Below, piece by piece: positions 1,029 through 29,313 of a stretch of DNA of 64,000 nucleotides. Numbering within the stretch: position 1 is the stretch's first letter; the number at the start of each line of letters is the position of its first letter. Source of the DNA: Candidatus Didemnitutus sp. (lineage in GTDB: Bacteria > Verrucomicrobiota > Verrucomicrobiia > Opitutales > Opitutaceae); NCBI GenBank assembly GCA_019634575.1, contig JAHCAY010000001.1, positions 2,852,001 through 2,916,000 on the forward strand, given 5' to 3'. Under the pieces are notes generated by a model that saw nothing but the letters and a program-made list of their open reading frames with translations, was not told where the DNA came from and made no database searches. The translations under genes were made by a program, and so were the position numbers.

Positions 1029-1867
1029 CGAGGAATCCCCTGCGAAGGGCCCTTGGGTTTGAGCGTCGGCAGCGGCCGCGCAGACGGAGCGTTTGGCTCG
1101 TCAGGCCCGCGGGATGGCCGAATCGGATTTTGCGGTGGATCCAGCTCTGAGCCGATCGAGTGGTAGACGGCGGGGTTGGGAATGATCTCAGCCAAGCTCA
1201 GCTGGACGGCGTGCGCGTAGCTGATGTGGGCGGCGATGAGGTGCCGGTAAGGTTTCGCGCCGGCCTTGGCCTCTTTCACGACGTCGCCGGCGAAGTCGAG
1301 ATCGTGGCCGAGGAGGTAGCGCTCGAATTGTGCGGCGAAGCGGACGCCGGAGGCTTCGATCGCGGCGGTTCGGGTATGTAGTTCGATGACCAAATCGGTC
1401 GGAACAACCAGAGCCCGAACCGGGTTTCCGCCGGATTTGAGCGGCACCGGCGTCTGAGAGTAGAGCAAAACGTGATGATGCCGGGTGGCCTCGCGATGGC
1501 GCTTCAACTGATCGAATCGGATCTCGGCGTATTTCTCTTTGCCCGATTCCGCGTAGGAGCGCTTGGCCTCGAGGGAGGTGAAACCGATGAGGGTTTTCCC
1601 CGGAGAGAGCGTGAGTTTCACGAGAATTCCGATGTCGCCGTAGATTTTCTCCTCACCGCCGATGAAATCGTAGCAATCGAAGAGCACGCGGGCGCCACCG
1701 ACGGTGGAAATCGCCTGAGTGGCGAACGCGAGTTTCAGCTCGACGAGCAATGCGGCAGTGAGCGGGGGTTCGCGTCGCCACACACCTGTGACGGCGTATT
1801 TCGCCAACGCGTCTTCGACGACTTGCTCGAGCGTTTCGGGAGTGGGTTGGGATGGAACGGTGCTCAT
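1025..1867 (-). CDS. uncharacterised protein in type I R-M locus, possible PD-(D/E)XK nuclease fold
   Basis: This 280-aa protein is not recognised as a named family. The ATG at 1867 overlaps the hsdM stop (ATGA) and its own stop overlaps the RhuM start in the same way, so it is a real coupled cistron. Residues 76-102 contain G-D78-IGILV and, after a predicted strand and turn, TSLE100-A-K102, with FDQLKRH near residue 120. This resembles the D-x(n)-ExK plus trailing Q pattern of PD-(D/E)XK nucleases. The C-terminus is proline-rich and low complexity. An accessory nuclease or restriction-associated factor is the likeliest role, but that is inferred from motif spacing and neighbourhood only. Confidence 0.75.
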   Translation of the reverse strand: MSTVPSQPTPETLEQVVEDALAKYAVTGVWRREPPLTAALLVELKLAFATQAISTVGGARVLFDCYDFIGGEEKIYGDIGILVKLTLSPGKTLIGFTSLEAKRSYAESGKEKYAEIRFDQLKRHREATRHHHVLLYSQTPVPLKSGGNPVRALVVPTDLVIELHTRTAAIEASGVRFAAQFERYLLGHDLDFAGDVVKEAKAGAKPYRHLIAAHISYAHAVQLSLAEIIPNPAVYHSIGSELDPPQNPIRPSRGPDEPNAPSARPLPTLKPKGPSQGIPR

Positions 1868-3351
1868 AGTCCGAGTTCCTTGAGGTAGCTGTCCATTTTC
1901 CGGCGGACGGCGTCGAGGTCGTGTTCGAGGGTGGCGATTTCCTGTTTCACGGCGGCGAGGTCGATCTCGGCTTCCTCCTCGAAGGTGTCCACGTAGCGCG
2001 GGATGTTCAGGTTGTAGTCGTTGTCGGTGATTTCCTGCGGCGTGGCGCGGTAGGCGTATTTTTCGACGGTCTTGAAATCCCGGTAGGTGGCGACGATGCG
2101 GGCGATGTGGTCGTCGGTGAGCCGGTTCTGGTTCTTGTCCTCGGCGTAGTCGCGCGAGGCGTCGATGAAGAGGACGTCGCCGTGGGTCTTGCCCTTGTTG
2201 AAAAGTAGGATGGCGGCGGGGATGCCGGTGCCGAAGAAGAGATTGGCGGGCAGGCCGATGACGGCTTCGAGGAGGTTTTCCTGAATGAGCTTTTGGCGGA
2301 CGCGGCCCTCGGCGGCGCCGCGGAAGAGCACGCCGTGGGGGACGATGACGCCGACGCGGCCGGTGCCGGGGCGGGCGGTCTCGATCATGTGGGTGATGAA
2401 GGCGTAGTCGCCTTTGCTGCGCGGCGGGAGGCCGCGGTGGTAGCGGTTGAACGGGTCGGCGCCGGCGTCTTCGTGGCCCCATTTTTCGAGCGAGAAGGGC
2501 GGGTTCGCGACGACAATGTCGAACTTCAGGAGCCGGTCGCCTTCGACGAGGCGCGGGTGGCGGAGGGTGTCGCCCCACTCGATGCGGAAGCTGTCCATGC
2601 CGTGCAGGAACATGTTCATGCGGCAGAGGGCGTGGGTGGTGCCGTTGGATTCCTGGCCGAAGAGGGCGAAGTCGCGCTCGTCGGCTTCGCGGCCGACCTT
2701 GATGAGCAGGGAGCCGGAGCCGCAGGCGGGGTCGCAGATGGTGTCGCCCTTCTTGGCGGCGAGGAGTTTGGCGAGGAGCGTCGAGACCTGGCCGGGCGTG
2801 TAGAATTCGCCGGCTTTCTTGCCGGCGTCGGAGGCGAATTTTTCCAGGAGGTATTCGTAGACGTTGCCGATGACGTCCTCGGAGCCGACGACGGAAGGGC
2901 GCAGGTCGAGGCGCTCGTCGTTGAAATCCTCGAGGAGGTGCTTAAGGCGCGCGTTGCGGTCCTTGGTCTGGCCGAGCTTGTTTTCGGAGTTGAAGCTGAC
3001 CTCGCGGAAAACGCCTTCGAGTTTGGCCTTGTTGGCTTCCTCGATCTGGTCGAGGGCAATGTCGATGCGCTGGCCGATGTCGGGTGCGTTGCGCTGGGTG
3101 TAGAGGCTGTCGAAGTCGGCTCCGGCCGGCAGAACGAAGCGCTCGCGGGAGAGGCGGCGTTGCACGCGCTCCTCGTCGCCGCCGAACTCGGCGAGGTAGC
3201 GGGCGCGGTGATCTTTCAGGACGTCCGAGACGTATTTCAGGAACAGCATCACGAGGATGTAGTTCTTGTAGTCCGACGGATCGATGACGCCGCGGAAGGT
3301 GTCGCAGGCGCGCCAAGCGACCTCGTTGATTTCGCGTTGGGAAAATTTCAT
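1864..3351 (-). CDS. hsdM: type I restriction-modification DNA methyltransferase subunit
   Basis: HsdM transfers a methyl group from S-adenosylmethionine to adenine N6 in the M2S complex of type I restriction systems. The 495-aa protein has the N-terminal helical HsdM domain (about 5-140), the SAM-binding motif DPACGSG at 207-213 and the catalytic NPPF motif at 283-286, all intact and at usual family length. It follows the specificity gene by 13 bases and overlaps the next gene by ATGA. No hsdR is visible in the window; it could lie to the left of position 1. The intact motifs indicate an active methylase. Confidence 0.95.
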   Translation of the reverse strand: MKFSQREINEVAWRACDTFRGVIDPSDYKNYILVMLFLKYVSDVLKDHRARYLAEFGGDEERVQRRLSRERFVLPAGADFDSLYTQRNAPDIGQRIDIALDQIEEANKAKLEGVFREVSFNSENKLGQTKDRNARLKHLLEDFNDERLDLRPSVVGSEDVIGNVYEYLLEKFASDAGKKAGEFYTPGQVSTLLAKLLAAKKGDTICDPACGSGSLLIKVGREADERDFALFGQESNGTTHALCRMNMFLHGMDSFRIEWGDTLRHPRLVEGDRLLKFDIVVANPPFSLEKWGHEDAGADPFNRYHRGLPPRSKGDYAFITHMIETARPGTGRVGVIVPHGVLFRGAAEGRVRQKLIQENLLEAVIGLPANLFFGTGIPAAILLFNKGKTHGDVLFIDASRDYAEDKNQNRLTDDHIARIVATYRDFKTVEKYAYRATPQEITDNDYNLNIPRYVDTFEEEAEIDLAAVKQEIATLEHDLDAVRRKMDSYLKELGL

Positions 3352-3364
3352 GGGGAACAGCGGG

Positions 3365-3961
3365 TCAGGAAGAGTGGCCGGCGAAAGCGCGGTGATGGAG
3401 GAGTTCGTCGAAATAACGGGAGCGAAGGTCGGCGAGGCGGGCGGAGAGGGCGCGCTCCTCGGCGGTGAGACGGGCGAACTCGACGAGCTTTCGCTGGACG
3501 TCGAGCGGCGGCAGCGGAACGTCGATCTCGGCGAGATCGGTCAGCTGGATCAATTGCACGTGGCTGCCTTTGCGGCGGGTGTCGAAGTAGCGGCGGATCC
3601 GTTCCGAGCGCAGGAACCACGCGACAAAGTGGGGATCGACGGCGGGATCGACCTCCAACACGAAGAATTGCGTGCCGACGATCGCGTTGGAGAAGGGCAG
3701 GTCGTAGGCGGCGGCGGTATTGCGGCCGCCCCGCGCCGCCACGATGACGTGGCCGGCATGGAGGAATTGCTCCGGGGCAACGCGATCGCGCGGCTGGATC
3801 GAAATCACGGACCCTTCTGCGATCGTCCCATCCTCCGACACATCACCAATGCGGATCAGGCGGAGTCGGCCGTTTTCGGAAGGGCGCGCCGAGTCTTGCC
3901 CTCGAAGGGTCACTCCGGCGCGAACGCGACAGAACTGGGAGATGAACGGCACGACAGACAC
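3365..3961 (-). CDS. hsdS: type I restriction specificity subunit, single target-recognition domain
   Basis: The 198-aa product looks like one half of a normal HsdS, which is about 400 aa with two target-recognition domains (TRDs) and two helical spacers. It has a single TRD (about 1-160: GDVSEDGTIAEG, GHVIVAARGG, WFLRSERIRRYF, IPLPPLDVQ-like end VPLPPLDVQRK) and one helical dimerisation segment (161-190: QRKLVEFARLTAEERALSARL). Half-size S subunits can pair as homodimers and then recognise symmetric bipartite sites. It is first in the locus, upstream of hsdM. Truncation of a full-length gene is possible, but no second TRD remnant is seen in the 70 bases upstream. Confidence 0.85.
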   Translation of the reverse strand: MSVVPFISQFCRVRAGVTLRGQDSARPSENGRLRLIRIGDVSEDGTIAEGSVISIQPRDRVAPEQFLHAGHVIVAARGGRNTAAAYDLPFSNAIVGTQFFVLEVDPAVDPHFVAWFLRSERIRRYFDTRRKGSHVQLIQLTDLAEIDVPLPPLDVQRKLVEFARLTAEERALSARLADLRSRYFDELLHHRAFAGHSS

Positions 3962-14823: not shown

Positions 14824-15234
14824 ATGACGAAGAACAAACTCGAGCTGATCGCCACGCTGCTCGCGCTCGGCGCGGGCGCGCTGGATTTCGGCACGGGCCT
14901 CGGCCTCGTTTTCCTGCCCGACCTGATGCTGAAGCTGATGGGCGCCGCCACGCTCGCGGCGGAGCCGACGATCTACCTCCGCTGGGTGGGCGCGTTCGTC
15001 GCGGCGGTGGGGTTCAGTTATCTCTGGGCGCTCTGGCGGCGCGACGTCGCGCGGCTGCGGCATGTGCTGGAACTGACGATCTTCTTCCGCCTCGCCGCCG
15101 GCGCCTACAGCGCCTGGGCCATCGCGAGTGGCGCGCTGCCGATCGCGTGGCTCAGCGTGCCGCTGACGGACTTTTTCCTCGCGGCGGCGCAGGCGTGGCT
15201 GGTGCGCCGCGGCGTATTCACGACAGCTCGCTGA
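14824..15234 (+). CDS. small membrane protein, unknown function
   Basis: This 136-aa protein has four predicted transmembrane helices (about 8-30, 45-65, 75-95 and 100-125). The N-terminus MTKNKLELIATLLALGAG is inside-positive. No enzyme motif is seen. It overlaps the convergent GNAT-aminotransferase gene by 17 bases at the 3' ends, so it is not part of that minus-strand cluster. Confidence 0.7.
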   Translation: MTKNKLELIATLLALGAGALDFGTGLGLVFLPDLMLKLMGAATLAAEPTIYLRWVGAFVAAVGFSYLWALWRRDVARLRHVLELTIFFRLAAGAYSAWAIASGALPIAWLSVPLTDFFLAAAQAWLVRRGVFTTAR

Positions 15235-16969
15235 GCACCTCGCGCAGGATTGCGAGCATCCGGGCGTTCGTCGCGGCGTCTTTGACGGCAAGGCGAACCG
15301 TGTGCGTGCCGAGGCTGCGGCTCATGGTCGCGGCATCGCGCAAAAACAGGCCGTGCTCGCGACATTGCGCGACGACCGTCGCGGCGCCCGGGCCGCCCGC
15401 GGGCAAATGGCAGAGCAGAAAGTTCGCGACGCCCGGCAGCACCTCCCAGCCGAGCTCGTGCAAACCGGCCGCGAGTTCGGCCCGCAGCGTGTGCGTCTCG
15501 CGATACCGCGCGGCGTAGTAGGACGGATACTGCAAGGCCCGCACGGCGGCGACCTGCGCGGGCAAACCCACGACCCACGGCGGCGTGATGGCGCGCAACG
15601 CCTCGAGTTGGTGCGGCCCCGCGCATAAGTAGGCGGCGCGCGCGCCGCTGAGCGCGTAGACCTTCGACAGGGATTTGCACACGACGACATTCTCCGAACC
15701 AGCGGCGAACGTCTCCAGCGACTCCGCTCCGCCGCCGGCGTATTCGATGTAGGTCTCGTCGATCCACACGCGCGTGGAGGGCGGCGCGCTGCGGAGCAGC
15801 GGCTCGAGCACCGCGCGCGGCAGATGCCGGCCGGTGGGACTGTTTGGATTGACGATGACGACGAGATCGTAACCCGCGCCGAGCGCGGTCGCGAGGCGTG
15901 CGGGATCGACGGCGTAACCGTCGGCGCGATGCAGCGCGAACCGATCGACGTGACAACCGATCACGCGTTCGAGCACGTGGGCGTATTCGCCGTAGGTCGG
16001 GTCGAGAATCAGTGCATGTGCAGAGGGCGTGAGCCATTGCCGGAAGGCGCGGAAAATCAGGTCCGAGGAACCGCCGCCGACGAGGATGTTGGCCGGTTGC
16101 ACGCCGCGCGCGGACGCGAGCGCCGCGATGAGTCCGGCGCAGGCGGTCGGAGGCGAGCTGCGCAGCAGCCACGGGAGGTGTTCGTGCAATGTCGTCAGCA
16201 CCTCCGGTGCGGGGGCGAACCACGCGTCGAGCACGTCGGCGTTGATGACGTCGCGCCGCCGTTCGAGCGCGGCGAAATCCTCGCCGATGGCCTGGAAGAA
16301 CGCGCCGCCGTGAAAACAGGCCGCGGGTTTGCGAAACGGAAAGGCGAGCCGCCACTCGGTCGCGCTTTCCAGGCGATCCAGCAGCGTGGCGTGTTCCGTG
16401 GCGCGGACGCGCAGCTCGTCGGTCGTGCCGAGCATGAGTTCGTAGGTCACGGCGCCGGCGCGCGTCGTCAGGCCGAGCGGGCGGAGGCCGACATGGCGAT
16501 AGAGTTCGAGCACTTCGCGGCGGCCGATGGCGGCGATGCGGGTGCCGCCGTGCGCCTCGACCCAGCGGAGCGCGGCATACATCAGCAGCAGCGCGATCTC
16601 GCGGCCGCGATGGGGTTTCAACACCGTGAGCAGGCGGACTTCGTGGAGTTGGGCGTCGATGCGGAACGGCAGGGCGTCGCGCGTGAAGTATTTGTCGAGC
16701 GAGAGCGAGGGCGCGGAGGGCGGCGTGATGCTGACGAAGCCGGCGATGGTGTCATCGATGCGCGCCACGAGATTGAAGACATGCGGATCGAGCGCATCGC
16801 CGAGGCGGCCGGTGGCGTTGGGCGTGTGCTGGCCGAGCTCCTGCGCGTAGACATCGTGGCGCAAGCGGGCGAGTTGCCCGCGGTCGGAAGCGTCGGCGAG
16901 TTCGAGGGAGAAGCGTGCGGCGGTCTCGCGGCGGCGCGGTGCAGTGGGGTGGACAAGCGCGGTGTTCAT
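15218..16969 (-). CDS. GNAT N-acyltransferase - PLP aminotransferase fusion protein
   Basis: This 583-aa protein joins two enzymes. Residues 20-185 form a GNAT acyltransferase-like domain with RHDVYAQELGQH and LHEVRLLTVLKPHRG, more like autoinducer- and N-acyl-amino-acid-synthase GNATs than small acetyltransferases. Residues 215-583 form a HisC-like fold-type I aminotransferase: NPNSPTG at 374-380, DETYIEY at 404-410, and SLSK with PLP lysine K436. It is probably a producer of an acylated amino compound, but no substrate is visible. It is the last gene of a minus-strand run with a membrane protein, Aas and LplT, all pointing to lipid chemistry. The ATG at 16969 starts the conserved part. Confidence 0.85.
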   Translation of the reverse strand: MNTALVHPTAPRRRETAARFSLELADASDRGQLARLRHDVYAQELGQHTPNATGRLGDALDPHVFNLVARIDDTIAGFVSITPPSAPSLSLDKYFTRDALPFRIDAQLHEVRLLTVLKPHRGREIALLLMYAALRWVEAHGGTRIAAIGRREVLELYRHVGLRPLGLTTRAGAVTYELMLGTTDELRVRATEHATLLDRLESATEWRLAFPFRKPAACFHGGAFFQAIGEDFAALERRRDVINADVLDAWFAPAPEVLTTLHEHLPWLLRSSPPTACAGLIAALASARGVQPANILVGGGSSDLIFRAFRQWLTPSAHALILDPTYGEYAHVLERVIGCHVDRFALHRADGYAVDPARLATALGAGYDLVVIVNPNSPTGRHLPRAVLEPLLRSAPPSTRVWIDETYIEYAGGGAESLETFAAGSENVVVCKSLSKVYALSGARAAYLCAGPHQLEALRAITPPWVVGLPAQVAAVRALQYPSYYAARYRETHTLRAELAAGLHELGWEVLPGVANFLLCHLPAGGPGAATVVAQCREHGLFLRDAATMSRSLGTHTVRLAVKDAATNARMLAILREVLSELS

Positions 16970-16991
16970 GGGCGGGTATTTTTCGCGGCGG

Positions 16992-17660
16992 TCACTCAGT
17001 GGTGGCGGCGGCGCGGCAGGTTTTGCGGAGCAGGAGGTGTGTCGGCACGTGGACGAGGCCGACGAGCGTGGCGATCCACGCGCCGAGATAGGCCAGTGGT
17101 GGGAGCCAGGTTTGCGGCGTCTCCTCGCTGAAACCGAAAACATAGTTCACGTTGCGCGGGATCTTCGGATCGGCGACGGAGGCGCCGGCGGCGGGCAGGA
17201 AGAAATACGCGACGACGCACAGCGCCGCGGCGAGGGTCGACCACGCGGGCAGCGCGCGGCGATCGTAGCCGACCCGGCGCACGGCGTAGAACAGCAGGAA
17301 CGGCAGCCAGCCGTGGAAGAGCGACAGCCCGCGCAGGAAGACCGAGCGGTGCGCGTCGAACATGTAGTCGGTCATGCCGGTGAGTTTCCAACCGCCCAAG
17401 TGAGCGGCGAAGTCCACGCACCAGACCAGTTGCGGCAACAGGATGCCGACGGCGGGCAGCGAGAGGAGGAGCGGACTTTCGCGCCACATGCCCACGAGCG
17501 TGAGCAGCAGGGCGACGTCGCAAAAATAGAGAAAGTTGGTCGGCCCGTAGTTGGCCCAGTAGACCGGAATGAGCACGGCGAGGAACGCCGTGTAGGCGAG
17601 CTTGAGCCAAAGCGGCAGGCGCGGGACGCCACCGGGAGTTTTGGGAGCGAGCGTGTTCAT
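16992..17660 (-). CDS. multi-pass membrane protein, unknown function
   Basis: This 222-aa protein has about six hydrophobic segments. It has conserved-looking polar residues between helices (VWCVDFAAHLGG, DYMFDAH, GLSLFHGWLPFLLFY). No named domain was recognised with confidence; carotenoid- or lipid-associated membrane proteins are possible relatives. It is 22 bases upstream of the GNAT-aminotransferase gene and 113 bases downstream of aas on the same strand, so it likely belongs to the same lipid-related cluster. Confidence 0.75.
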   Translation of the reverse strand: MNTLAPKTPGGVPRLPLWLKLAYTAFLAVLIPVYWANYGPTNFLYFCDVALLLTLVGMWRESPLLLSLPAVGILLPQLVWCVDFAAHLGGWKLTGMTDYMFDAHRSVFLRGLSLFHGWLPFLLFYAVRRVGYDRRALPAWSTLAAALCVVAYFFLPAAGASVADPKIPRNVNYVFGFSEETPQTWLPPLAYLGAWIATLVGLVHVPTHLLLRKTCRAAATTE

Positions 17661-17773
17661 GGGAGGGAAGAGGAGGAGAAGAAGCCTGACCGAGCTTCGT
17701 TGGTTTTGTGGTGGAGCGGGCCCAGCGGTCCTGCCCTACCGCACGCGACGAGCATTCAACGTGAAATCGTGCA

Positions 17774-20080
17774 TCAGGAGGCGGCGCCCGGCGTGACGCT
17801 CGCGGCGAGGGTGCCCGGGGCGATTGGCGCAATGTTCGTATGGCGAACCTTGTTGGCCGGCTCGGTGGCGAGGTCCCGCGCGAGCGTGCGGTGATCGGTT
17901 TTGCCGGTGCCGAGTTTCGGGATCGCGCGGACGACGCGCAGCTCGCGCGGCGCGCAGAGGTTCGAGAGGCCGCGGCTGCGGATCGCGGCGCGGATCTCGG
18001 CGAGCGTGAGGCGCTGGTCGTTGGTCGCGGCGAGGAGTTTTTCACCCTTGTCCTCGTCGGGCACGGCGACGACGGCGACCTGACAGCGCGGGCCGAGGTG
18101 CGGGAACGCGCCGGCGAGCGCGTCTTCGACGGCGGTCAGGCTGACCATTTCGCCGCTGACCTTGGCGAATCGCTTCATGCGTCCGAGCAGGTGGAGAAAG
18201 CCGCGTGCGTCGACGACCGCGAGGTCGCCGGTATCATACCAGCCGTCGAGGGCCCGGAAGGCGGCGTTCGCGTCGGGATTGAGGTAGCCTTTCATGACGT
18301 TCGGGCCGCGCACGAAAAGCCGTCCGCCCTCGGCGATGCCGTCGACCGGTTCGAGACGGTAGTCCATGCCCGGCACGAAGCGCCCCGCGCTGCCCGGTGC
18401 CGAGTCGAGGCGCGTGTTCGCAGTGATGAGCGGGCTGCACTCGGTGGCGCCGTAGCCTTCGAGGATGCGCACGCCGAATTTGCGGGCCCAGAGATCGAAC
18501 GTGGCGCCCTGCACTTTTTCCGCGCCGGCGAGAAGGAAGCGCACCGAGTTGAAATCATAGGCGTGCGCCTTGCGCGCGTAGCCGTTGAGAAAGGTGTTCG
18601 TGCCGAGCAGCACGGTGCACGCGCGGTCGTAGACGATGGTCGGCACGACGCGGTAGTGCAGCGGCGACGGATAGAGGAACGTGTAGCAGCCGCGCACGAG
18701 CGGGAAAAGCAGGCCGCCGGTCAGGCCGAAGCTGTGGAAGAGCGGAAGGGCGTTGAAGAAGCGGTCGTCGTCCGTGAGGTCCAGGCTCGCGCGCGCCTGA
18801 TGGACGTTCGCGAGGAGATTGCGATGCGAGAGCTCGACGCCCTTCGGCGTGCCTTCGGAACCGCTGGTGAAGAGGATGACGGCGGTGTCGTCGCCGCGCA
18901 GCGACGAACGGCGCTGACGCGCGCCGCACGCGAGCAGGTGTTCGAGTCCGGCGACGAGTTTCGCGAACAAACCGACGCGGGAGCGGACGTCCTCGAGAAA
19001 AATGAATTCGAGTCCGGCGGCTTGCAGCGGCGCGAGGTCGAGCTTGGCCTTTTCTACGAAAAGCCGCGACGTGACGATCTGCCGCAAACCCGCGAGACGC
19101 GCGCAGGCGAGCATCGTGGCGGAGCCGGTCGAGTAGTTGAGCAGCGCCGGCACGCGGCCGACGCGCCAGAGGCTGAGCAGCACGAGCGGGGTGGCGTTGG
19201 CGTTGGGCAGGAGGACGCCGATGCGGCTAGGTGCATCGTCGGCATGTGGGAGCGAGCTTGCTCGCGACTCGCTCGCGGAATGTCGCGAGCGAGCGAGCTC
19301 CCACACACGCGTCGGAGCCGGAGAGAGGGGCCTTTGCCACTGACGCGCGAGCAGGTCGGTGCCGATCAGCACGCGGCGATAGCTGAGCGAGGCTAGCGAG
19401 TGGTCCTGCAACGCGACGCGCGACGGGATGGCCGCAGCGGCTTCGGCGACGGCGGCGAGGAGGTTTTGCGGCCCGAAGGCCAGATCGGTCTCGAACTGTT
19501 GGAGCATGAGCGCGTCGCGCAGCCAGGTCGTGAGGTGGATGCGCGCGTCGTGTCCGGGCAGATCGTCGCAGCGCGGCGGCGTCAGCACGTCGCTGAAATG
19601 CGCCGTCACGCGCGGGAACCATTTCGTCCAGCCGCGATGGCGGACGAAGCGCAGGCGGTTCGCGCCGCGCAGGTAGCAGGTGATGACGCGCGCGCCAGTG
19701 CGGCCGATGAGAAAGCCGGTGCCATCGAAGAGCTTCATCATCGAACCGGTGAGCGAGATGCGTCCCTCGGCGAAGAGCACGAGCCGGCCGCCGCGCGCGA
19801 GGTGCTCGGCCATGTCACGGACGGCGTAGGGCGAGGCGTGGTCGACGGGAAACGTGCGGCGGTTGACCATCATGCGCCGCGTGAGCCAGTTGGTTTCCGC
19901 CGTGGTGGACGAGGTGACGAACTTCCAGTCGTCGTCGAGCACGACGTAGAGGAACAGCCAGTCGAGCCACGAGACGTGGTTCGGCACGAGCAGCACCGGG
20001 CCGGGCGCAGTGAGGCCGGCGGTGTTGTAGGCGCGGAAGCGGAACAGCAACCGAAGGAGCCAGCGCGCGAAGGTTTTCAT
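17774..20080 (-). CDS. aas: bifunctional acyltransferase / acyl-ACP (AMP) synthetase
   Basis: In E. coli, Aas re-acylates lysophospholipids: an acyltransferase domain uses fatty acid activated by an AMP-ligase domain. Here a PlsC-like domain (1-190) has NHVSWLD and FAEGRIS. The ligase domain (about 225-768) has LFTSGSEGTPKGVELSH, GYGATECSP, WYDTGDLA and GRMKRFAKVSGEMVS. At 768 aa it is longer than E. coli Aas (719). About 20 extra residues (259-279) come from an imperfect palindrome inserted in frame at 19245-19305. It sits directly downstream of lplT, the standard partner. Confidence 0.9.
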   Translation of the reverse strand: MKTFARWLLRLLFRFRAYNTAGLTAPGPVLLVPNHVSWLDWLFLYVVLDDDWKFVTSSTTAETNWLTRRMMVNRRTFPVDHASPYAVRDMAEHLARGGRLVLFAEGRISLTGSMMKLFDGTGFLIGRTGARVITCYLRGANRLRFVRHRGWTKWFPRVTAHFSDVLTPPRCDDLPGHDARIHLTTWLRDALMLQQFETDLAFGPQNLLAAVAEAAAAIPSRVALQDHSLASLSYRRVLIGTDLLARQWQRPLSPAPTRVWELARSRHSASESRASSLPHADDAPSRIGVLLPNANATPLVLLSLWRVGRVPALLNYSTGSATMLACARLAGLRQIVTSRLFVEKAKLDLAPLQAAGLEFIFLEDVRSRVGLFAKLVAGLEHLLACGARQRRSSLRGDDTAVILFTSGSEGTPKGVELSHRNLLANVHQARASLDLTDDDRFFNALPLFHSFGLTGGLLFPLVRGCYTFLYPSPLHYRVVPTIVYDRACTVLLGTNTFLNGYARKAHAYDFNSVRFLLAGAEKVQGATFDLWARKFGVRILEGYGATECSPLITANTRLDSAPGSAGRFVPGMDYRLEPVDGIAEGGRLFVRGPNVMKGYLNPDANAAFRALDGWYDTGDLAVVDARGFLHLLGRMKRFAKVSGEMVSLTAVEDALAGAFPHLGPRCQVAVVAVPDEDKGEKLLAATNDQRLTLAEIRAAIRSRGLSNLCAPRELRVVRAIPKLGTGKTDHRTLARDLATEPANKVRHTNIAPIAPGTLAASVTPGAAS
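19245..19305. repeat. REP-like palindrome inside aas
   Basis: Left arm 19245-19268 begins TGTGGGAGCGAGC; right arm 19282-19305 is its imperfect reverse complement, with mismatches only in the middle of the 24-bp arms. The motif resembles the GTGGGAGCGAGCTTGCTCGC palindromes common between genes in other bacteria. Here it is read through in frame as Arg/Ser/Ala-rich sequence. Confidence 0.8.
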
Positions 20081-20176
20081 GGTGGAGAAAGCAGAGATGG
20101 TTCGGACGGAGCGGAAGCGGTGAGGCTTTCGCCGTGGGAGTGGCGGTGGCAGCGCGGCAGGATCCTGCGGGTCTCG

Positions 20177-21457
20177 CTACGCGGCTTTGGTCGCCGCCGG
20201 GACGTCGGCGACCACCGGGGAAGCGGACCTGATGCGCAGAGCCACCGAGGCGACCGCTAGCGCGATGGGCAACGCGATGAAGACTTGCGTGGGCGAGAGG
20301 CCGGCGGCGGTCAGTGCGCCGAGGAAGCCCGCGCCGACGAGCATCGCGAGGTAGTCGGTGAAATTCTGAATCGCGATCGTCTTGCCGAGCTGGCCGGGGT
20401 CGCTCTCGTGCTGGAGCGCGGCGTTGAGCGGCACGATGAGCAGGCCCGCGAAAACGCCGGCGGCGACGAGAGCGGCGATGACGACGGCGAGCCCGGCGTG
20501 TCCGCCGAGCAAGCCCAGCGCGAGCACGGCGGCGGCCATCAACCATCCGTAGCGGCGCGTCCACGAGAGATCGCCGAGGCGGTGGAGGCGGCCGGCGAGC
20601 ACGCTGCCGGCGACGATGCCGAGCACGAGGCCGAGCTTGAGGAGCGCGAGCCGGGTGTTGGTGACGTCGTGGCGTCCGGCTTCGTGGAAGACTTGCAGAC
20701 CCCAGCCCTGGAGGTTGCTGCGCAGCGTGGCGCCGGCGAACCAGAACAGCGCGCAGCCGAACAGCACGCGTCCGAGGCGCGCGTGCGTGACGAGGCGGCG
20801 GAGGCTCGCGGCGAATTCACCGGCGCTGTGGCGCAGCGAGGCGGCGGCGTTGTGCGGCGTGCGTTCCATGCGGCTGTTGCAGATGAGGGCGGCGACGTAG
20901 AGCACGGCGCTCGCGAGGTAGCACGCGGGCAGCGAGCGCGTCGCGTCGTAGAGTGCGGCGCCGCCGCCGAGTCCGCCGACGATGGCGATGAGGGTGAGCA
21001 TCTCGACCATGCCGTTCGCTTTCACGAGGCGTTCGGCGGGCAGGATTTCGGGGAGGATGCCGTATTTCGCCGGCGAGTAGACGCAGGCGCCGAGTCCGAT
21101 GATCGCGTAGCCGACGACCTGCCAGGTGCGGCTGGCGTGGAAATCGCCCGCATGCAGCCAGACGCCGGCGAGCGCGAGCAGCGTGCCGAGGAGTTTCACC
21201 ACGTTGCCGCCGAAGAGCCACGCGGTCTTCGGCAGGCGGTCGTTGAGCCAGCCTGCGAGTGGCGCGAGGACGATGAAGGGGATGAAGAACACGGCGCTGA
21301 AGAGCGCGTTCTGGGCGTTCACCTCGCGTTCGGTGATCGCGCCGCTGGCGAGGCTGAACGTCAGCGGTCCGAGCGCGGCGGCGAGGACGAAGTTGTCGCC
21401 GAAGGCGCCGAGGAATTGGCCGGCGAGGAGGCGGCGGTAGTTGCGGGGGGAGTTCAT
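20177..21457 (-). CDS. lplT: lysophospholipid transporter (MFS family)
   Basis: LplT flips lysophospholipids across the inner membrane to Aas. This 426-aa protein has the MFS layout of about 12 helices and LplT-like segments: FLGAFGDNFVLAAALGPLTF, LNDRLPKTAW, YSPAKYGILPEILPAERLVKANGMVEM and ALQHESDPGQLGKTIAIQNF. Its start (ATG 21457) overlaps the rhombosortase stop by ATGA. Its C-terminal residues VVADVPAATKA are encoded by a REP-like repeat (20190-20217), so the original stop may have been displaced. Aas follows 97 bases downstream. The pairing supports the assignment of both. Confidence 0.88.
   Translation of the reverse strand: MNSPRNYRRLLAGQFLGAFGDNFVLAAALGPLTFSLASGAITEREVNAQNALFSAVFFIPFIVLAPLAGWLNDRLPKTAWLFGGNVVKLLGTLLALAGVWLHAGDFHASRTWQVVGYAIIGLGACVYSPAKYGILPEILPAERLVKANGMVEMLTLIAIVGGLGGGAALYDATRSLPACYLASAVLYVAALICNSRMERTPHNAAASLRHSAGEFAASLRRLVTHARLGRVLFGCALFWFAGATLRSNLQGWGLQVFHEAGRHDVTNTRLALLKLGLVLGIVAGSVLAGRLHRLGDLSWTRRYGWLMAAAVLALGLLGGHAGLAVVIAALVAAGVFAGLLIVPLNAALQHESDPGQLGKTIAIQNFTDYLAMLVGAGFLGALTAAGLSPTQVFIALPIALAVASVALRIRSASPVVADVPAATKAA
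20190..20217. repeat. REP-like palindrome at the 3' end of lplT
   Basis: This 28-base segment is identical to 11855-11882. Its core is the imperfect palindrome GTCGCCG...CGGCGAC. It lies just inside the lplT stop and supplies the last few codons of that gene. Confidence 0.8.
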
Positions 21458-22038
21458 GAGGCGAAGGTGCGTGGGGAAGGGAGAAAAGCCGGGGTGCGCG
21501 ACGCGAGGTGGTAGGCGAGGGCAGCGGCTGCGCCCAACACGTGCGCTGCGACGGACGGGCGGATTGCCGTGGAGCCGAAATCGCTGAAGAGGGCGGCGCC
21601 GCCCTGGGACTCCCAGACGAGTTTTGCGACGACGAGCGTGAGCGCGGCGAGCCACCAGGCGCGTGCGGCGGGAGCGGTCGCGAGTTGTGTCAGCGCCAGC
21701 AGCAGCACGATGCCGACGGCGAGTCCGGAAAGGCCGCCGTAGATGGCCATGGTCGGAGCGAGGGCAAAGAGACCGAGGCCGATCGCGGGTGCAGCGAGCA
21801 CCGTGTAGCGCAGCAGCACGCCGGGCCGCGTCCGTTCGAGCCACGCGCCCGCGACGAGGAGGACGAGCAGGTTCCAAGCGGCGTGCGAGGCGGAGAAGTG
21901 CACCCAGTGACCGGTCGCGACCCGCCACCATTGGCCCGCGGAGATGGCGGCGCGGTCGTAGATGAACCACGCGGGCGCAAGCGCGGCGGCAAGGGCGGGG
22001 AGCGCGAAGAGGGCGAGCGGGGAGCGGAGAGTTTTCAT
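21454..22038 (-). CDS. rhomboid-family protease, rhombosortase-like
   Basis: This 194-aa protein is a six-helix rhomboid intramembrane serine protease of minimal size, as in rhombosortases. The pattern GQWWRVATGHWVHFSASHAAWN contains the HxxxN element (H52, N56). The nucleophile is S104 in YGGLSGL, and H166 in VAAHVLGA completes the Ser-His dyad. Rhombosortases cleave C-terminal GlyGly-CTERM signals at the membrane; the gene directly upstream encodes a protein with such a tail. The ATG at 22038 gives the shortest form with a complete first helix. The stop overlaps the lplT start. Confidence 0.8.
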   Translation of the reverse strand: MKTLRSPLALFALPALAAALAPAWFIYDRAAISAGQWWRVATGHWVHFSASHAAWNLLVLLVAGAWLERTRPGVLLRYTVLAAPAIGLGLFALAPTMAIYGGLSGLAVGIVLLLALTQLATAPAARAWWLAALTLVVAKLVWESQGGAALFSDFGSTAIRPSVAAHVLGAAAALAYHLASRTPAFLPSPRTFAS

Positions 22039-22129
22039 GCTCGGAAGAGGCGAAAAGGCGACGTTGCGTGGAGGAGGACGGGATCGCGACGAGTGCGGCG
22101 GCCTCGGCGGCTGGGCCGCCGCGTGGTTG

Positions 22130-23017
22130 TCACCACATTCGCGGCGCGCCCAGCGGTCGCGCTTTGCCCGCGAAGGCGGCACCGACGAAGAGCAGCGCGA
22201 GCGCGGCGGCGAAGGCGCCATCGAACGCGCCGCCGCCGATGTAGCCGGGCTTGTGCTCGATGCGGATGTTCTGCGGTTCCTCCTTGGCGCGCACTTTGAA
22301 GAGTTCGAGTTCCTGGGAGAGATTGGCCGTCATCTGCGCGGCGGCGTCGGTGATGCCCTTGGCAGAGGCCTCGCGGAGGAAATCGTCGGTGCGGAACAGC
22401 GTGGAGTGGTTCTGCACGGTGCTGGTGCCCGGTGCACGGAAGAGCAGGCTGCGGCTGGAGATGTCGTAGACGACCGCTTCCATCAGCGTGTGCGTGGTGT
22501 TGCGCTGGGCGGGCACGATGTAGGCGCCGACGATGGTCCAGTAGGCGATGCTCGCCTCGGTGTCCGAAGAGTTTTGCGACTGGTCGTAGGAGAGGAGCGC
22601 GATCACATCGATGCCCATCATGGCGCGGAGCTGGTCGAGGTTTTCGAAGCCGCCGCCGGGGCGCAGGTAGGTCGTGGGGATGATCTCGATGGATTGGACG
22701 AAGGGGAGGGTCTTGAATTGGCCCGCGACCTTGCGGAGCAGCTCGGTTTTCTGCGCCTCGGAGATATTGCCCGGCGTGCGGTAGAAGGAGCCTTGGCCGT
22801 TGCTGACGCCGGTCGGCACGAACGCCACGCCGACGCGCAGTGGCAGGCGCAGCGTGGGGATGGTCGGTTGGACGAAGGGCGTTTCCTTGTTCGGATAGAG
22901 GAATTGCACGATGCTGCTCGCCTCGTGGTGCGAGCGTTCGCCGAAGAAGCCGACGCAACCGGTGAGCAGCGCGAGGGTGAGGGCGGCGGGGAGGAGGAGC
23001 AGGCGGCGGGAGTTCAT
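22130..23017 (-). CDS. rhombotarget-like lipoprotein with C-terminal GlyGly-helix tail
   Basis: This 295-aa protein has two sorting signals. The N-terminus is a lipoprotein signal (MNSRRLLLLPAALTLALLTGC, Cys21). The C-terminus has GGG at 261-263, a hydrophobic helix (AFAAALALLFVGAAFAG) and a basic K-A-R tail. That is the GlyGly-CTERM layout processed by rhombosortase, and the protease gene follows 91 bases downstream. The family known as rhombotarget lipoprotein fits this architecture. The middle part (VGVAFVPTG, LRKVAGQFKTLPFVQSIEIIPTTYL) has no known activity. Confidence 0.8.
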   Translation of the reverse strand: MNSRRLLLLPAALTLALLTGCVGFFGERSHHEASSIVQFLYPNKETPFVQPTIPTLRLPLRVGVAFVPTGVSNGQGSFYRTPGNISEAQKTELLRKVAGQFKTLPFVQSIEIIPTTYLRPGGGFENLDQLRAMMGIDVIALLSYDQSQNSSDTEASIAYWTIVGAYIVPAQRNTTHTLMEAVVYDISSRSLLFRAPGTSTVQNHSTLFRTDDFLREASAKGITDAAAQMTANLSQELELFKVRAKEEPQNIRIEHKPGYIGGGAFDGAFAAALALLFVGAAFAGKARPLGAPRMW

Positions 23018-23274: not shown

Positions 23275-24165
23275 ATGAACATCCATCACCTCGAACTTTT
23301 CTACTATGTGGCGAAGCACGGCGGCATCAGCCGCGCGGTGCGCTCGATGCCCTACGGCATCCAGCAGCCGGCGGTGAGCAGCCAGATCCTCCAGCTGGAG
23401 CAGGATCTCGGCGCGAAGCTCTTCGAGCGCACGCCGTTTCGCCTGACCCCGACCGGCGAGGAGCTGATGACGTTCATCACGCCGTTCTTCGAGAACGTCG
23501 GGGCCGTGGGCGCGCGCTTGCGCAAGAGCGCCGCGCCGCAGTTGCGCATCGGCGCATCGGAGCTGGCCCTGCGCGATCACTTGCCGGCGATCATCGGGCA
23601 TCTGCGCCGGCATGAGCCGAAGGTGCGATTGAGCCTGCGCTCGGGCTTCCAGCCGCAGATCGAGCGCTGGTTGCTCGACAAGGAAATCGATCTCGCGATC
23701 ACGCCGATCGACAGCCGCCCGCCGGCCGGCGTGGAGCACAAGCTCCTGTTGCGCGTGCCGATCGTGCTGCTGGTGCCGAAAAAATCGCGGTGGAAGAAGG
23801 CCGAGGAACTGTGGGCCGGCGGCATACCCGAGGAGTCGCTCATCTGCCTGCCGGCGAACGAGTGCATGAGCATGATTTTCCAACGACACTTGAAATACCA
23901 TCGCACGGCGTGGACGCCGGCGATCGAGGCGAGTTCGCTGGAACTCATCACGCAATACGTCGCGAGCGGCTACGGCGTCGGCGTGAATGTGGCGATTCCC
24001 GGCGTGATCAAGCATCGCGACGTGCGCGCGCTGCCGCTCGAAGGCTGCGATCCGGTCGAGGTGGCGGCATTGTGGCGGGGGCAACCGGCGCCGCTCGTGC
24101 AAGCCGTGCTCGACGCGGCCGGCGGCTACATCCGCAGCCAGTGGCCGGACTGGGCGTGCGCGTGA
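23275..24165 (+). CDS. LysR-family transcriptional regulator
   Basis: This 296-aa protein has the LysR wing-helix N-terminus (MNIHHLELFYYVAKHGGISRAVRSM, QPAVSSQILQLEQDLGAKLFERTPFRLTPTGEEL) and a C-terminal LysR-substrate domain (about 88-290). It is divergent from the rhombotarget lipoprotein gene, which makes that gene or its cluster a candidate target, although LysR regulators can also act elsewhere. The effector cannot be read from the sequence. It converges with the histidine operon and ends 74 bases before hisIE. Confidence 0.92.
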   Translation: MNIHHLELFYYVAKHGGISRAVRSMPYGIQQPAVSSQILQLEQDLGAKLFERTPFRLTPTGEELMTFITPFFENVGAVGARLRKSAAPQLRIGASELALRDHLPAIIGHLRRHEPKVRLSLRSGFQPQIERWLLDKEIDLAITPIDSRPPAGVEHKLLLRVPIVLLVPKKSRWKKAEELWAGGIPEESLICLPANECMSMIFQRHLKYHRTAWTPAIEASSLELITQYVASGYGVGVNVAIPGVIKHRDVRALPLEGCDPVEVAALWRGQPAPLVQAVLDAAGGYIRSQWPDWACA

Positions 24166-24217: not shown

Positions 24218-24250
24218 AATCTAGCGTATTACGCTAGATTCACTTTTTTC
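24218..24250. terminator. A+T-rich terminator hairpin between LysR gene and hisIE
   Basis: A perfect 9-bp stem, AATCTAGCG (24218-24226) and CGCTAGATT (24232-24240), has loop TATTA. On the plus strand it is followed by CACTTTTTTCCC, a good U-tract for the LysR transcript. On the minus strand it follows the hisIE stop directly. The low G+C is unusual for this genome. Confidence 0.75.
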
Positions 24251-24857
24251 CCGTGTGGCGTTTCTCGAGAACGCTGAGGGCGTCTTGGAGCGAGAGGCCT
24301 TTGACGCGGAGGAGCACGATGAGGTGGAAGAGCAGGTCGGCGGCTTCGTTGGCGAGCTCGACGTTGTCGCCGGCGGTGGCGGCGAGCGCGGTTTCCACGC
24401 CTTCCTCGCCGACTTTCTGCGCGACGCGCTTCACGCCTTCGCGGACGAGTTTGGCGGTGTAGCTTTTCTCGTCATCGGAGGCGATGCGCCGGTTCACGGT
24501 GCGTTCGAGCTGGGCGAGGAAACCGGTGCCGGTGGCGCCGCCGCCTTCGCCGAAGCACGAGCAGGTGCCGCGGTGGCAGGTGGGGCCGTTCGGGCGCGCG
24601 CGGACAAGCAGCGTGTCGTTGTCGCAGTCGCCCTCGACGCTCACGAGGTCGAGGAAGTGGCCGGACGATTCACCCTTGATCCAGAGGCGGTTCTTCGAGC
24701 GCGAGAAGAAGGTGATGCGCTTCGTCGCGAGCGTCTGCTCGAGTGCGGCGGCGTTCATGTAGCCGAGCATGAGGACTTGCTGCGTGTCGGCGTCCTGGAT
24801 GATGGCGGGGAGGAGGCCGTCGCCTTTCTGCCAGTCGAGAGCGGAGAGAGCGGTCAT
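24240..24857 (-). CDS. hisI: bifunctional phosphoribosyl-AMP cyclohydrolase / phosphoribosyl-ATP pyrophosphatase
   Basis: HisIE catalyses steps 2 and 3 of histidine synthesis. The N-terminal cyclohydrolase part (1-115) has [29 protein letters not shown], the metal-binding CDNDT and the zinc cysteines in CHRGTCSCF. The C-terminal pyrophosphatase part (about 125-205) has KSYTAKL..EG and [13 protein letters not shown] followed by [14 protein letters not shown]. The 205-aa fusion is the usual length. The ATG at 24857 was chosen; the longer frame (13 more residues) is translated repeat DNA. It is the last gene of the his operon, separated from hisF by a repeat-filled 175-bp gap. Confidence 0.95.
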
Positions 24858-24870
24858 GGGAAATTTTGGA

Positions 24871-24960
24871 AACCACGAATGGACACGAATGAACACGAAT
24901 CAGGAAAAGCTGAATCGTGAGCCGGAGTCATTCGTGTGAATTCGTGTCCATTCGTGGTTA
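24871..24960. repeat. CACGAAT inverted repeat in the his operon
   Basis: Arm 24871-24900 contains three CACGAAT units in tandem (ACCACGAATGGACACGAATG...). Arm 24929-24960 is its reverse complement (ATTCGTGTCCATTCGTGG). The loop is about 28 bases. The element lies between hisF and hisIE, would fold as a long hairpin in the his mRNA, and is lower in G+C than the flanks. Confidence 0.85.
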
Positions 24961-25005
24961 AGTTTGTTTGGGTGTGGGTGAGAAGGTTCGGTCTCTGGCC
25001 TGACT

Positions 25006-25026
25006 GGGCCAGTCGGAGACTGGCCC
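25006..25026. repeat. GGGCCAGTC hairpin after hisF
   Basis: A perfect 9-bp stem, GGGCCAGTC (25006-25014) and GACTGGCCC (25018-25026), has a three-base loop. It begins 7 bases downstream of the hisF stop on the coding strand. There is no U-tract, so it looks like a REP-type palindrome rather than a terminator. Confidence 0.7.
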
Positions 25027-25032
25027 TACTTT

Positions 25033-25800
25033 TCAGGTGCGGACGCAGACGCCTTCGCGGGCGAGGTAGGATTTCAGGTCGGGGATCGGGATGGTGCCCT
25101 TGTGGAAGACGGACGCGGCGAGCGCGCCGTCCACGCCGGCTTGTTGGAAAACGTCGCGGAAATGCTCCGGCGCGCCCGCGCCGCCGGAGGCGACGAGCGG
25201 GATCGTCAGCACGGCGCGGACGAGTTTGAGCTGCGCGAGGTCGTAGCCGGCGCGCACGCCGTCCTGGTTCATGCAATTGAGCACGACCTCGCCGGCGCCG
25301 CGCTTCTGCGCCTCGGCGGCCCAGTCGATCGTGCGCCAGCGCGTGGACTGCGTCTTGTCGGGATTGCCGGTGTAGGCCTTCACGAAGTAGTCGCCGTTTT
25401 CCTGGCGGGAGTCGATGCCGACGACGACGGCTTGCGAGCCGAATTCGTCGGCCAGTGAGGTGATCAGATCCGGGTTTTCGAGGGCGGGCGAGTTGAGCGA
25501 GACCTTGTCGGCGCCGCTGTGGAGGATCACGCGTGCGCCGTCGAGCGAGCGGATGCCGCCGGCGACGCAGAAAGGGATGTCGATCACGCGGGCGACGCGC
25601 TCGACCCACGCGGCGGAGACGGTGCGGCCGTCGGAGCTGGCGGTGATGTCGTAGAAGACGAGCTCGTCGGCGCCGGCGTCGCGGTAGCGTTGGGCCAGCT
25701 CGATGATGTCGCCCATGTCCTCGTGGTTGCGGAACTGGACGCCTTTGACGACGCGGCCATCGCGGACGTCGAGGCAGGGGATGATGCGGCGGGCTAGCAT
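25033..25800 (-). CDS. hisF: imidazole glycerol phosphate synthase, cyclase subunit
   Basis: HisF is the TIM-barrel half of IGP synthase; it uses ammonia from HisH to form IGP and AICAR from PRFAR. The 255-aa protein starts [23 protein letters not shown] with the catalytic Asp in CLDV, and has VGIDSR with the second catalytic Asp. [12 protein letters not shown] and [13 protein letters not shown] are the phosphate-binding loops. The ATG at 25800 lies inside the end of hisA (7-base overlap), a coupling arrangement. All residues needed for activity are present. Confidence 0.97.
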
Positions 25801-26522
25801 ACGAGCGCCTCCTGGAGCGTGAACTTCTTCTCGTAGAGCGCGCGGCCGACGATGGCGCCGGGGGCACCTTCGCGCTTGAGGCGGCGGAGGTCGTCGAGCG
25901 AGGAAACGCCGCCGGACGCTTGCGCGTCGATGGTCGGAAAATCGCGGCGCAGCTGCGCGTAGAGCTCGAAGTTCGGACCGGTCAGCTTGCCGTCGCGCGA
26001 GATGTCGGTGCAGAGGATGTGTTTCAGTCCGCGCGGGATAAACGTGCGCAGCGTGGCGTCGAGTGTGACGCCGCTGTCGGCTTGCCAGCCGGCGACGGCG
26101 ATCATCGGCACGCCGGCGGCGTTGAGGCGGACGTCGAGCGCGAGGACGATTTTCTCCGGGCCGAATTTCTCGAGCCAGCCGCCGACGAGGTCGGGTTGTT
26201 TCACGGCGAGGCTGCCGACGATCACGCGCGTGACGCCGGCGTCGAGGAGCGTGCGAACGTGCGACTCGTCGCGGACGCCGCCGCCGGATTGGACGCGTAG
26301 GCCACAGGCTTGGACGATGGCGGCGACGAGCGCGGTCTGGCGCTGCGCGGGGTCCTTGGCGCCGTCGAGGTCGACGAGGTGCAGCCACGGCGAGCCCGCG
26401 GCGGCGAAGTCGCGCGCGACGGCGGCGGGGTCGTCGAAGTAGGCTTTCTCGGCGTCGAAGCTGCCCTCGGTGAGGCGCACGACGCGCCCGCGGCGGAGGT
26501 CGATGGCGGGATAAAGGATCAT
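25794..26522 (-). CDS. hisA: ProFAR isomerase
   Basis: HisA converts ProFAR to PRFAR, step 4 of the pathway, in a TIM barrel related to HisF. The 242-aa sequence has the catalytic Asp in [13 protein letters not shown] and the second Asp in [11 protein letters not shown]. The phosphate sites are [13 protein letters not shown] and [14 protein letters not shown]. The start overlaps the hisH stop by ATGA and the end overlaps hisF. No anomaly was seen. Confidence 0.97.
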
Positions 26523-28251: not shown

Positions 28252-29313
28252 TCAGACACGGGCGAGGGTCTCCAGGGCGAAGTCGTTTTCGGCGCGCGTG
28301 CCGATGGTGATGCGGACGGTGTTGGGGACATCCTTGCTGCGGTCGCGGATGACGAGGCCAGCGGCGCGGGCGATGTTCATGACGCGGGCGGAGTCGGTGA
28401 CTTCGACGAGGAGGAAGTTGGCGTCGCTCGGCCAGATTTTGCGGACGTGCGGGAGCTTCACGAGGGCGGCGGTGAGGCGGCGGCGTTCACCGACGAGATC
28501 GAGGGCGGACTGGCGCGCGGCGGAGATGCCGGCGGGAGTGAGTGCATCGAGCGCGGCGCGGACGACCGGTGCGGGGATCGGGTAGGGCGCGATGATTTTT
28601 TGCAGGACGCCGATCAGTTGCGGCGAGGCGAGAGTGACGCCGACGCGCGCGCCGGCGAGGCCGTAGGCTTTCGAGAGCGTGCGGAGGACGACGAGGTTGG
28701 GGTTGGCGTCGAGTTCCTGCACGAGACTCGGTTCGGTGGAGAACTCGGCGTAAGCTTCGTCAACCACGACGACGGCGCGCGTGGCGAGGGCGGTGACGAC
28801 TTTGAGGACGGCGTCGCGATCGAGGAGCTGGCCGGTGGGGTTGTTGGGCGAGCAGAGGAAAACGAGTTTGGTTTCGGGCGTGATTGCGCGGATGACGGCG
28901 TCGGGATCGACGGCGAAGTCTTTTTCGCGGACGAGCGGAACGGTGAGGGCGCGGGCGCCCTGGATGGCGGCGGCGACGGAATACATGCCGTAGGTCGGCG
29001 GAGTGGTGAGAATCGAATCCTGGCCGGCGCGGCAGAAGGCGCGGAGGAGGAGGTCGATGCCTTCGTCGGAGCCGCGCGTGACGAGGATGCGGTCGGGTTT
29101 GACGCCGTAGAGCGAGGCGAGGCGCGCGACGACTTCGGCGGGTTGCGGCTCGGGGTAACGGTTCAGGCGCGGTGCGCCGGCGTGCGGGGTCGAGGGATTT
29201 TCGTTGGCGTCGAGCCAGACTTTGCCGCCGGAGGCTTCCTTGCGGGCCGATGAATACGGCGTGAGCGCGAGGATTTCGGCGCGGACGAGAGAGAGCACGG
29301 GGTCGGAGGTCAT
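28252..29313 (-). CDS. hisC: histidinol-phosphate aminotransferase
   Basis: HisC transfers an amino group from glutamate to imidazole acetol phosphate with PLP. The 353-aa fold-type I protein has WLDANENPSTP, YGVKPDRILVTRGSDEGIDLL, the FLCSPNNPTGQ loop, VVDEAYAEF and the PLP lysine in RTLSKAYGLAGARVG. RIT near the C-terminus (VRITIGT) carries the conserved Arg. The ATG at 29313 overlaps the hisD stop (ATGA). It is the third gene of the operon. Confidence 0.96.
   Translation of the reverse strand: MTSDPVLSLVRAEILALTPYSSARKEASGGKVWLDANENPSTPHAGAPRLNRYPEPQPAEVVARLASLYGVKPDRILVTRGSDEGIDLLLRAFCRAGQDSILTTPPTYGMYSVAAAIQGARALTVPLVREKDFAVDPDAVIRAITPETKLVFLCSPNNPTGQLLDRDAVLKVVTALATRAVVVVDEAYAEFSTEPSLVQELDANPNLVVLRTLSKAYGLAGARVGVTLASPQLIGVLQKIIAPYPIPAPVVRAALDALTPAGISAARQSALDLVGERRRLTAALVKLPHVRKIWPSDANFLLVEVTDSARVMNIARAAGLVIRDRSKDVPNTVRITIGTRAENDFALETLARV

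Follow-up and report, generated by a model that had tools for sequence, protein, structure and literature searches.

The gene run in the window

Analysis of a 64-kb stretch of the Candidatus Didemnitutus sp. genome (Opitutaceae, Verrucomicrobiota; contig JAHCAY010000001.1, positions 2,852,001 to 2,916,000; this whole stretch of 64,000 nucleotides is called the window here) revealed six minus-strand genes that run from 23017 to 15218 with no other gene in between. The gene at the end of the run encodes a protein in which an N-terminal GNAT domain is joined to a C-terminal pyridoxal 5′-phosphate (PLP)-dependent enzyme domain, and this GNAT-PLP fusion is the main subject of our work. All six genes listed in a first-pass annotation are present (Table 1), and their assignments to families, judged by profile scores, are far beyond chance. 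The intergenic gaps, counted from the rhombotarget end, are 91, −4, 96, 113 and 22 bp, and such short distances (≤113 bp) suggest an operon-like arrangement. Promoter and terminator scans gave no decisive signal.

Table 1. Coordinates of the six genes, the two domains of the fusion protein and the divergent regulator gene in the window
Feature	Position	Strand	Family matches
Rhombotarget lipoprotein	22130..23017	-	TIGR04179, 298 bits (over the cut-off of 150)
Rhombosortase (rrtA)	21454..22038	-	TIGR03902, 107.7 bits (over the cut-off of 84)
LplT-like lysophospholipid transporter (major facilitator superfamily, MFS), 426 aa	20177..21457	-	PRK11195, 214 bits (under the cut-off of 297)
Aas-like PlsC + AMP ligase, 768 aa	17774..20080	-	PF01553, PF00501, PF13193 (over cut-off)
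Multi-pass membrane protein (MEM), 222 aa	16992..17660	-	No Pfam or NCBIfam match
GNAT-PLP fusion, 583 aa	15218..16969	-	PF00583, PF13444, PF00155
FeeM/acyl-homoserine lactone (AHL) synthase-like GNAT domain, N-terminal half of the fusion	~residues 16-207 (16924-16349)	-	
CobD/HisC-like fold-type I PLP domain, C-terminal half of the fusion	~residues 210-583	-	
LysR-family regulator, divergent from the cluster	23275..24165	+	PF00126, PF03466

The two halves of the fusion protein and its relatives

The longest open reading frame of the fusion gene begins at 17143, and the ATG at 16969 agrees with the homologues. The RxxVYxxELG pattern reported in the first-pass annotation is found as RHDVYAQELG in the GNAT domain, at residues 37-46 of the fusion protein. 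In 44 homologues across phyla, R37, E44, L45, Q47, E110 and R112 are among the GNAT residues that never vary. When the domain was cut out, it passed the cut-off of PF21926 (FeeM, N-acyl amino acid synthase) with 39.2 bits against 27 (E 7.6e-10), whereas a scan of the full-length protein gave general GNAT matches only. PF21926 was matched by 36 of the 44 homologues (E 0.01), the exosortase-associated acyltransferase model TIGR03694 by 26 and LuxI-type models by three, while neither the LuxI family PF00765 nor LuxI models match the window protein itself. The PF13444 score (22.8 bits for the full protein and 25.9 for the isolated domain, with a cut-off of 22.4) is weaker than the FeeM match. AlphaFold2 models of the fusion reached a confidence (pLDDT) of 93-94, and the top Foldseek match of the GNAT model was BjaI, a coenzyme A (CoA)-dependent AHL synthase (E 1.4e-10), with PaiA and other acetyltransferases close behind. 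VIA-align placed RpaI and BjaI at Z 18.4 over 182-184 residues, LasI at Z 17.5 and the FeeM structure 2g0b at Z 17.2 over 167 residues; the small acetyltransferase SACOL1063 ties at Z 18.4, over 141 residues. The BjaI alignment covers 184 of 211 BjaI residues, including the C-terminal extension; a shared fold shows no function. Family and predicted fold support a place for this domain among the acyl-transferring GNATs, and the proposed N-acyltransferase-like nature of the domain is supported, given that the FeeM cut-off is passed and that AHL synthases and FeeM are among the best matches of the model.

An alternative, which we consider unlikely, is that the GNAT domain is an ordinary acetyltransferase acting on a PLP-made amine and yielding a soluble N-acetyl metabolite unrelated to lipids. 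Such an activity would be consistent with the match of PF00583 (Acetyltransf_1) in all 44 homologues, with the closeness of PaiA and others in Foldseek, with the tie at Z 18.4, and with a sequence-profile search of solved structures, which led to arylalkylamine acetyltransferases (E 4e-4) and, unlike the Pfam and fold comparisons, listed neither AHL synthases nor FeeM up to an E value of 1. The FeeM match of the isolated domain argues against it, as does the fact that AHL synthases come out on top over a length that includes the C-terminal part which small acetyltransferases do not have.

The C-terminal half belongs to the fold-type I PLP enzymes. It is over the cut-off of PF00155, and the PLP contacts N376, D404, Y407, K436 and R444 are invariant in the 44 homologues, K436 being the Schiff-base lysine in an SxSK motif. 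The first-pass annotation called this half a HisC-like aminotransferase, but CobD scores higher (178 vs 158 bits): TIGR01140 (CobD) gave 178 bits against an equivalog cut-off of 290.55, and TIGR01141 (HisC) gave 157.6 bits against 276.55, so that the domain is under both. By structure the two are tied, with Z 42.2 over 354 residues at 25% identity for CobD and Z 41.8 for HisC. The domain has the HGG motif known from CobD, and ADVLDAW-like and TSPP-like segments are invariant segments of its own. The histidine gene region of the window, a few kb upstream of the cluster and on the same strand, comprises hisIE, hisF and hisA (24240-26522) and a HisC homologue (~28261-29208) that shares 34% identity with the PLP domain.

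A family scan covering 84,980 species genomes yielded 48 loci, most of them with the full fusion. These loci are titled Verrucomicrobiota, Planctomycetota, Bacteroidota, Acidobacteriota, Actinomycetota, Spirochaetota, Gemmatimonadota, Kiritimatiellota and others, and Poseidoniales archaea also carry members of the family. The labels of metagenome-assembled genomes (MAGs) are partly doubtful, one 'Proteobacteria' record sitting within the verrucomicrobial clade; the carriers comprise MAGs, including archaeal ones, and isolates such as Carboxylicivirga marina, Terracidiphilus gabretensis, two Actinoplanes and Bailinhaonella. In the window's phylum, nine of 288 genomes gave strong matches (one of them PLP-only); strong matches were also present in 18 of 392 genomes of the phylum of a Planctomycetota record (L025; six PLP-only) and in three of 395 genomes of the phylum of Carboxylicivirga (L020). 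The fusion gene is therefore rare and patchy, yet spread over many phyla; it is single-copy in all nine genomes checked, and the family has no Pfam or NCBIfam model of its own.

PLP-only homologues, 51-60% identical and found in several lineages, occupy several separate positions nested among the fusions in the tree and have no GNAT domain nearby. The simplest reading of this nesting is that the GNAT domain was lost repeatedly, which would mean that the PLP reaction can stand without the acyl step; the counts of changes fit gain or loss alike, so loss is only the presumed direction. These homologues also bear on a second alternative, to which we assign a low probability, namely that the PLP domain is the main enzyme, either a CobD-like amino acid phosphate decarboxylase or a HisC-like transaminase, and the GNAT domain a regulatory or protective extra. 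The higher conservation of the PLP half fits such a division (72 columns of the PLP half are at least 95% conserved vs 20 of the GNAT half), and so does a PLP-only gene in a gammaproteobacterial single-cell genome that begins only a few bp downstream of a Trp/Tyr permease gene (L043:7675-9915). Against it stand the invariant GNAT residues, kept across phyla, since a vestigial domain would have lost them. The permease neighbour hints at an aromatic amino acid as a possible substrate of the PLP domain. The PLP-only form also occurs in two Prochlorococcus single-cell records (L045:8284-9441 and L046:416-1540).

The cluster in Opitutaceae and the neighbours of the fusion gene

Of the five genes that accompany the fusion in the window, four form two well-known pairs. 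The rhombotarget lipoprotein has an N-terminal lipobox (LLTGC) and, at its C-terminus, a Gly-rich stretch, a transmembrane segment and a basic tail; the rhombosortase carries the rhomboid serine motif GGLSG, and with both models over their cut-offs the suggested pair of a rhomboid protease and its lipoprotein target is confirmed as a family assignment. The start of lplT overlaps the stop of rrtA by 4 bp. The Aas-like enzyme, a predicted 2-acyl-lysophospholipid acyltransferase/acyl-ACP (acyl carrier protein) ligase with both domains in one chain, has the HX4D motif as NHVSWLD and the AMP-ligase motif as TSGSEGTPKG. It matches PRK06814 (E 1e-211) and PRK08043 (E 7e-171), both under cut-off (for the PRK08043 equivalog, 570 bits vs 886); because the family matches of this protein and of the transporter are strong yet under the equivalog cut-offs, we call them Aas-like and LplT-like. 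Further Aas homologues are encoded in the same genome (C1:2335700-2337826 and C4:243791-245218): one is 57-64% identical, and the other, a distant one, lies inside a 1284-codon frame and is probably an MFS-fused Aas.

Both sampled genomes of the window's genus carry the complete six-gene set, as does one genome of a neighbouring genus (g6), and two further g6 genomes have the set without the membrane protein, which brings the set to three of four g6 genomes. Conservation of the gene order in Opitutaceae, the check named by the first-pass annotation, thus largely fails: the set is limited to two genera and the genes are mostly scattered in relatives. The lplT-aas pair occurs without the fusion in seven other Opitutaceae (G015, G432, G435, G440, G141, G467 and G472), and the rhombotarget gene is unlinked, on other contigs or at other places, in other Opitutaceae such as G015. 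The rhombosortase gene accompanies the fusion only in these five Opitutaceae genomes of the two genera and at no other locus inspected. The membrane protein, present in three of the five cluster-bearing genomes, is an independent family, which 11 of 188 genomes of the class encode (36-91% identity), usually away from the fusion; its genes adjoin an exosortase gene in L100 and L101 (~1500-3600) and an MlaD (MCE) gene in L099 (1498-3263). The cluster combines known modules in an arrangement specific to one lineage, namely two Opitutaceae genera, and one generally conserved pathway of six genes is rejected because the modules are separate in relatives. A second, independent origin of the arrangement, which would have made a functional link stronger, was also considered and dropped, as a single origin was not rejected (p-AU 0.154).

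Orthologues of the divergent LysR gene flank the whole cluster in all five cluster genomes. Elsewhere they adjoin a single module: lplT-aas in G141 and G472, the rhombotarget-rrtA pair in G433 and the fusion gene in L005. In most of the remaining Opitutaceae that have it, LysR is next to other genes and is thus not exclusive to the modules of the cluster. Its position makes it probable that LysR regulates the cluster. The adjacency of one LysR orthologue group to varied combinations of modules (window 23275-24165; L005, L110, L124 and L125) suggests an envelope regulon.

No neighbour of the fusion gene is conserved across phyla. Genes for PlsC, Aas or acyl ligases recur beside it in distant lineages, Gemmatimonadota included. 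The most operon-like lipid context outside Opitutaceae is in a Spirochaete (L037:9268-14142), where a PlsC gene overlaps the start of the fusion and an MMPL exporter gene follows 32 bp after it. A fused MFS-PlsC-AMP ligase gene precedes the fusion in a member of the Pontiellaceae (L035) and the PLP-only form in its sister (L147), an acyl-CoA-ligase-like gene follows 137 bp after the fusion in L044, and a fused Aas lies 2.3 kb downstream in L010. Around the fusion loci, 19 matches to acyl-gene domains fall within 3 kb and one beyond; without the Opitutaceae clusters there are five genes in ~282 kb within that distance vs one in ~490 kb beyond (hand binomial p ~0.03). Taken together, the shared LysR neighbour and the recurrent PlsC, Aas and acyl-ligase neighbours make a functional link possible. 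In a group of Planctomycetota (L021, L022, L026, L029, L031 and L132-L137) the neighbourhood of the fusion is fairly constant, with a homocysteine methyltransferase-like gene, a TPR protein and a peptidase-type ABC exporter, and a similar TPR protein adjoins the fusion in Poseidoniales (L048 and L050).

Whether these neighbours share a pathway with the fusion is the point at issue in a third alternative, which we regard as a real possibility: the gene of an independent enzyme may have been inserted beside the LysR/lplT-aas/rrt locus and share its transcription under one regulator, without a common pathway, its product being an N-acyl amino acid signal, a surfactant or another metabolite. The fusion stands alone in most genomes, the modules occur separately in Opitutaceae, and the lack of conservation of the membrane protein points to assembly by insertion, all of which would agree with chance neighbourhood. 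The acyl-gene neighbours in distant lineages speak against it, as does the fact that two genera have kept the arrangement although their fusion proteins share only 66-69% identity.

A candidate N-acyl-amine synthase and its comparison with known systems

We tentatively favour the explanation that the fusion is a bifunctional N-acyl-amine synthase which, in Opitutaceae, has been joined to a LysR-linked envelope-lipid locus. Its chemistry, the acyl length, the coupling and the regulation are what we infer from gene content, domain families, predicted folds, distribution and neighbourhoods. Both halves are conserved over the 44 full-length homologues, in which 62 columns, that of K436 among them, are invariant, and this speaks for the explanation. 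The PLP domain would make or modify an amino compound by transamination or decarboxylation, and the GNAT domain, as its family and fold suggest, would then acylate the amine with acyl-ACP or acyl-CoA as the donor. The locus that the fusion gene would have joined in two Opitutaceae genera consists of two older modules, rhombotarget/rhombosortase and lplT-aas, the latter of which would flip and re-acylate lyso-lipids. Coupling may follow the logic of aminolipid synthesis: N-acylation by the GNAT domain would give a single-chain amide lipid, to which the PlsC domain of Aas would add a second chain, or which LplT would move. LysR would regulate the whole locus, as the neighbourhood suggests, and the rhombosortase pair is probably only co-regulated with the fusion. 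Known aminolipid pathways use an N-acyltransferase first and a PlsC-type O-acyltransferase second (PMC11631085), and a passage in PMC11416262 describes LplT as flipping lysophospholipid, which Aas then acylates; by analogy with these steps, a coupling of Aas and LplT to the fusion product would be chemically sensible.

Several results weigh against this explanation. The profile search of solved structures pointed to arylalkylamine and serotonin acetyltransferases rather than to enzymes that use acyl-ACP, which leaves room for an acetyl donor, and the nested PLP-only homologues make the acyl step dispensable. Most fusion genes have no adjoining lipid gene, and none was found beside the fusion in any Planctomycetota locus of a second sample. 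The enrichment of lipid genes outside Opitutaceae is weak, because the 3-kb limit was set post hoc, the loci are related and no case came from the later Planctomycetota sample. The coupled pathway put forward in the first-pass annotation is only partly supported: LysR and the lipid-gene neighbours in distant lineages are consistent with it, but the modules are separate in relatives and the fusion is usually alone.

On a broader and more doubtful view, the fusion may represent a widespread, self-contained enzyme class of several bacterial phyla and marine archaea, in which a PLP-made amine is N-acylated by an AHL-synthase-like domain to give an acyl-amide lipid or signal. On this view, its partners in Opitutaceae and, separately, in one Spirochaete would be a PlsC-type acyltransferase and a lipid transporter, and their joint product a new membrane aminolipid. 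Quorum signals, surfactants and membrane aminolipids are all found among the N-acyl amides. If the fusion makes and acylates its own amine, a new N-acyl compound would need no more than one gene, whose expression could reveal the product. The enzyme is the part of interest and the cluster matters less, while LysR and the neighbouring lipid genes indicate where the product might be sought.

Each half of the fusion resembles known enzymes. Like the FeeM-type N-acyl amino acid synthases (NAS; PF21926), the GNAT domain is over the family cut-off and matches the fold of 2g0b; unlike them, it is joined to a PLP enzyme, and to our knowledge the FeeM/NAS proteins are stand-alone. BjaI and RpaI are its best structural matches, sharing the top Z score, although identity is only ~17% and the window protein has no PF00765 match; the fusion has E110xR112, compared with the ExxR spacing of LuxI proteins. 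CobD (L-threonine-O-3-phosphate decarboxylase) is the best structural match of the PLP domain, which differs in being far under the cut-off, in being fused and in its ADVLDAW and TSPP segments; no cobamide gene was noticed adjoining the fusion at the loci inspected. HisC (histidinol-phosphate aminotransferase) ties structurally, with a 34% identical match in the same genome, but again the domain is far under the cut-off, and the genome has a separate HisC-like gene.

The OlsBA/GlsBA aminolipid pathways share with the proposed route the logic of N-acylation by a GNAT protein and O-acylation by a PlsC-type enzyme, and the PF13444 match of the fusion is just over the cut-off; unlike in these pathways, the GNAT domain matches FeeM better, the O-acyltransferase is Aas-like and the PLP domain has no counterpart. 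Aas is known for its role in phospholipid repair. A PlsC-type partner is near here as the PlsC domain of Aas and adjoins the fusion in the Spirochaete, and it is absent beside most homologues. In gene content, the LplT-Aas repair pair and the rhombosortase/GlyGly-CTERM pair are as known, only their junction with the fusion being unusual; the latter is a known dedicated pair, and GlyGly-CTERM and rhombosortase genes are reported to be adjacent in Opitutus terrae (PMC3237569). A passage in PMC7293339, citing Craig et al. 2011, links NAS genes to PEP-CTERM/exosortase, and the parallel with NAS genes next to an exosortase, which here rests on one lineage, may be worth noting. The biosynthesis of stieleriacines was considered as a pathway in which such a fusion might already have been described, and set aside, as the two papers on it describe N-acyl amino acid synthases without an aminotransferase. 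We found no paper describing a GNAT-aminotransferase fusion in a search that left most subscription journals outside. As far as the searched literature and the family libraries show, the fusion is an undescribed architecture within known superfamilies.

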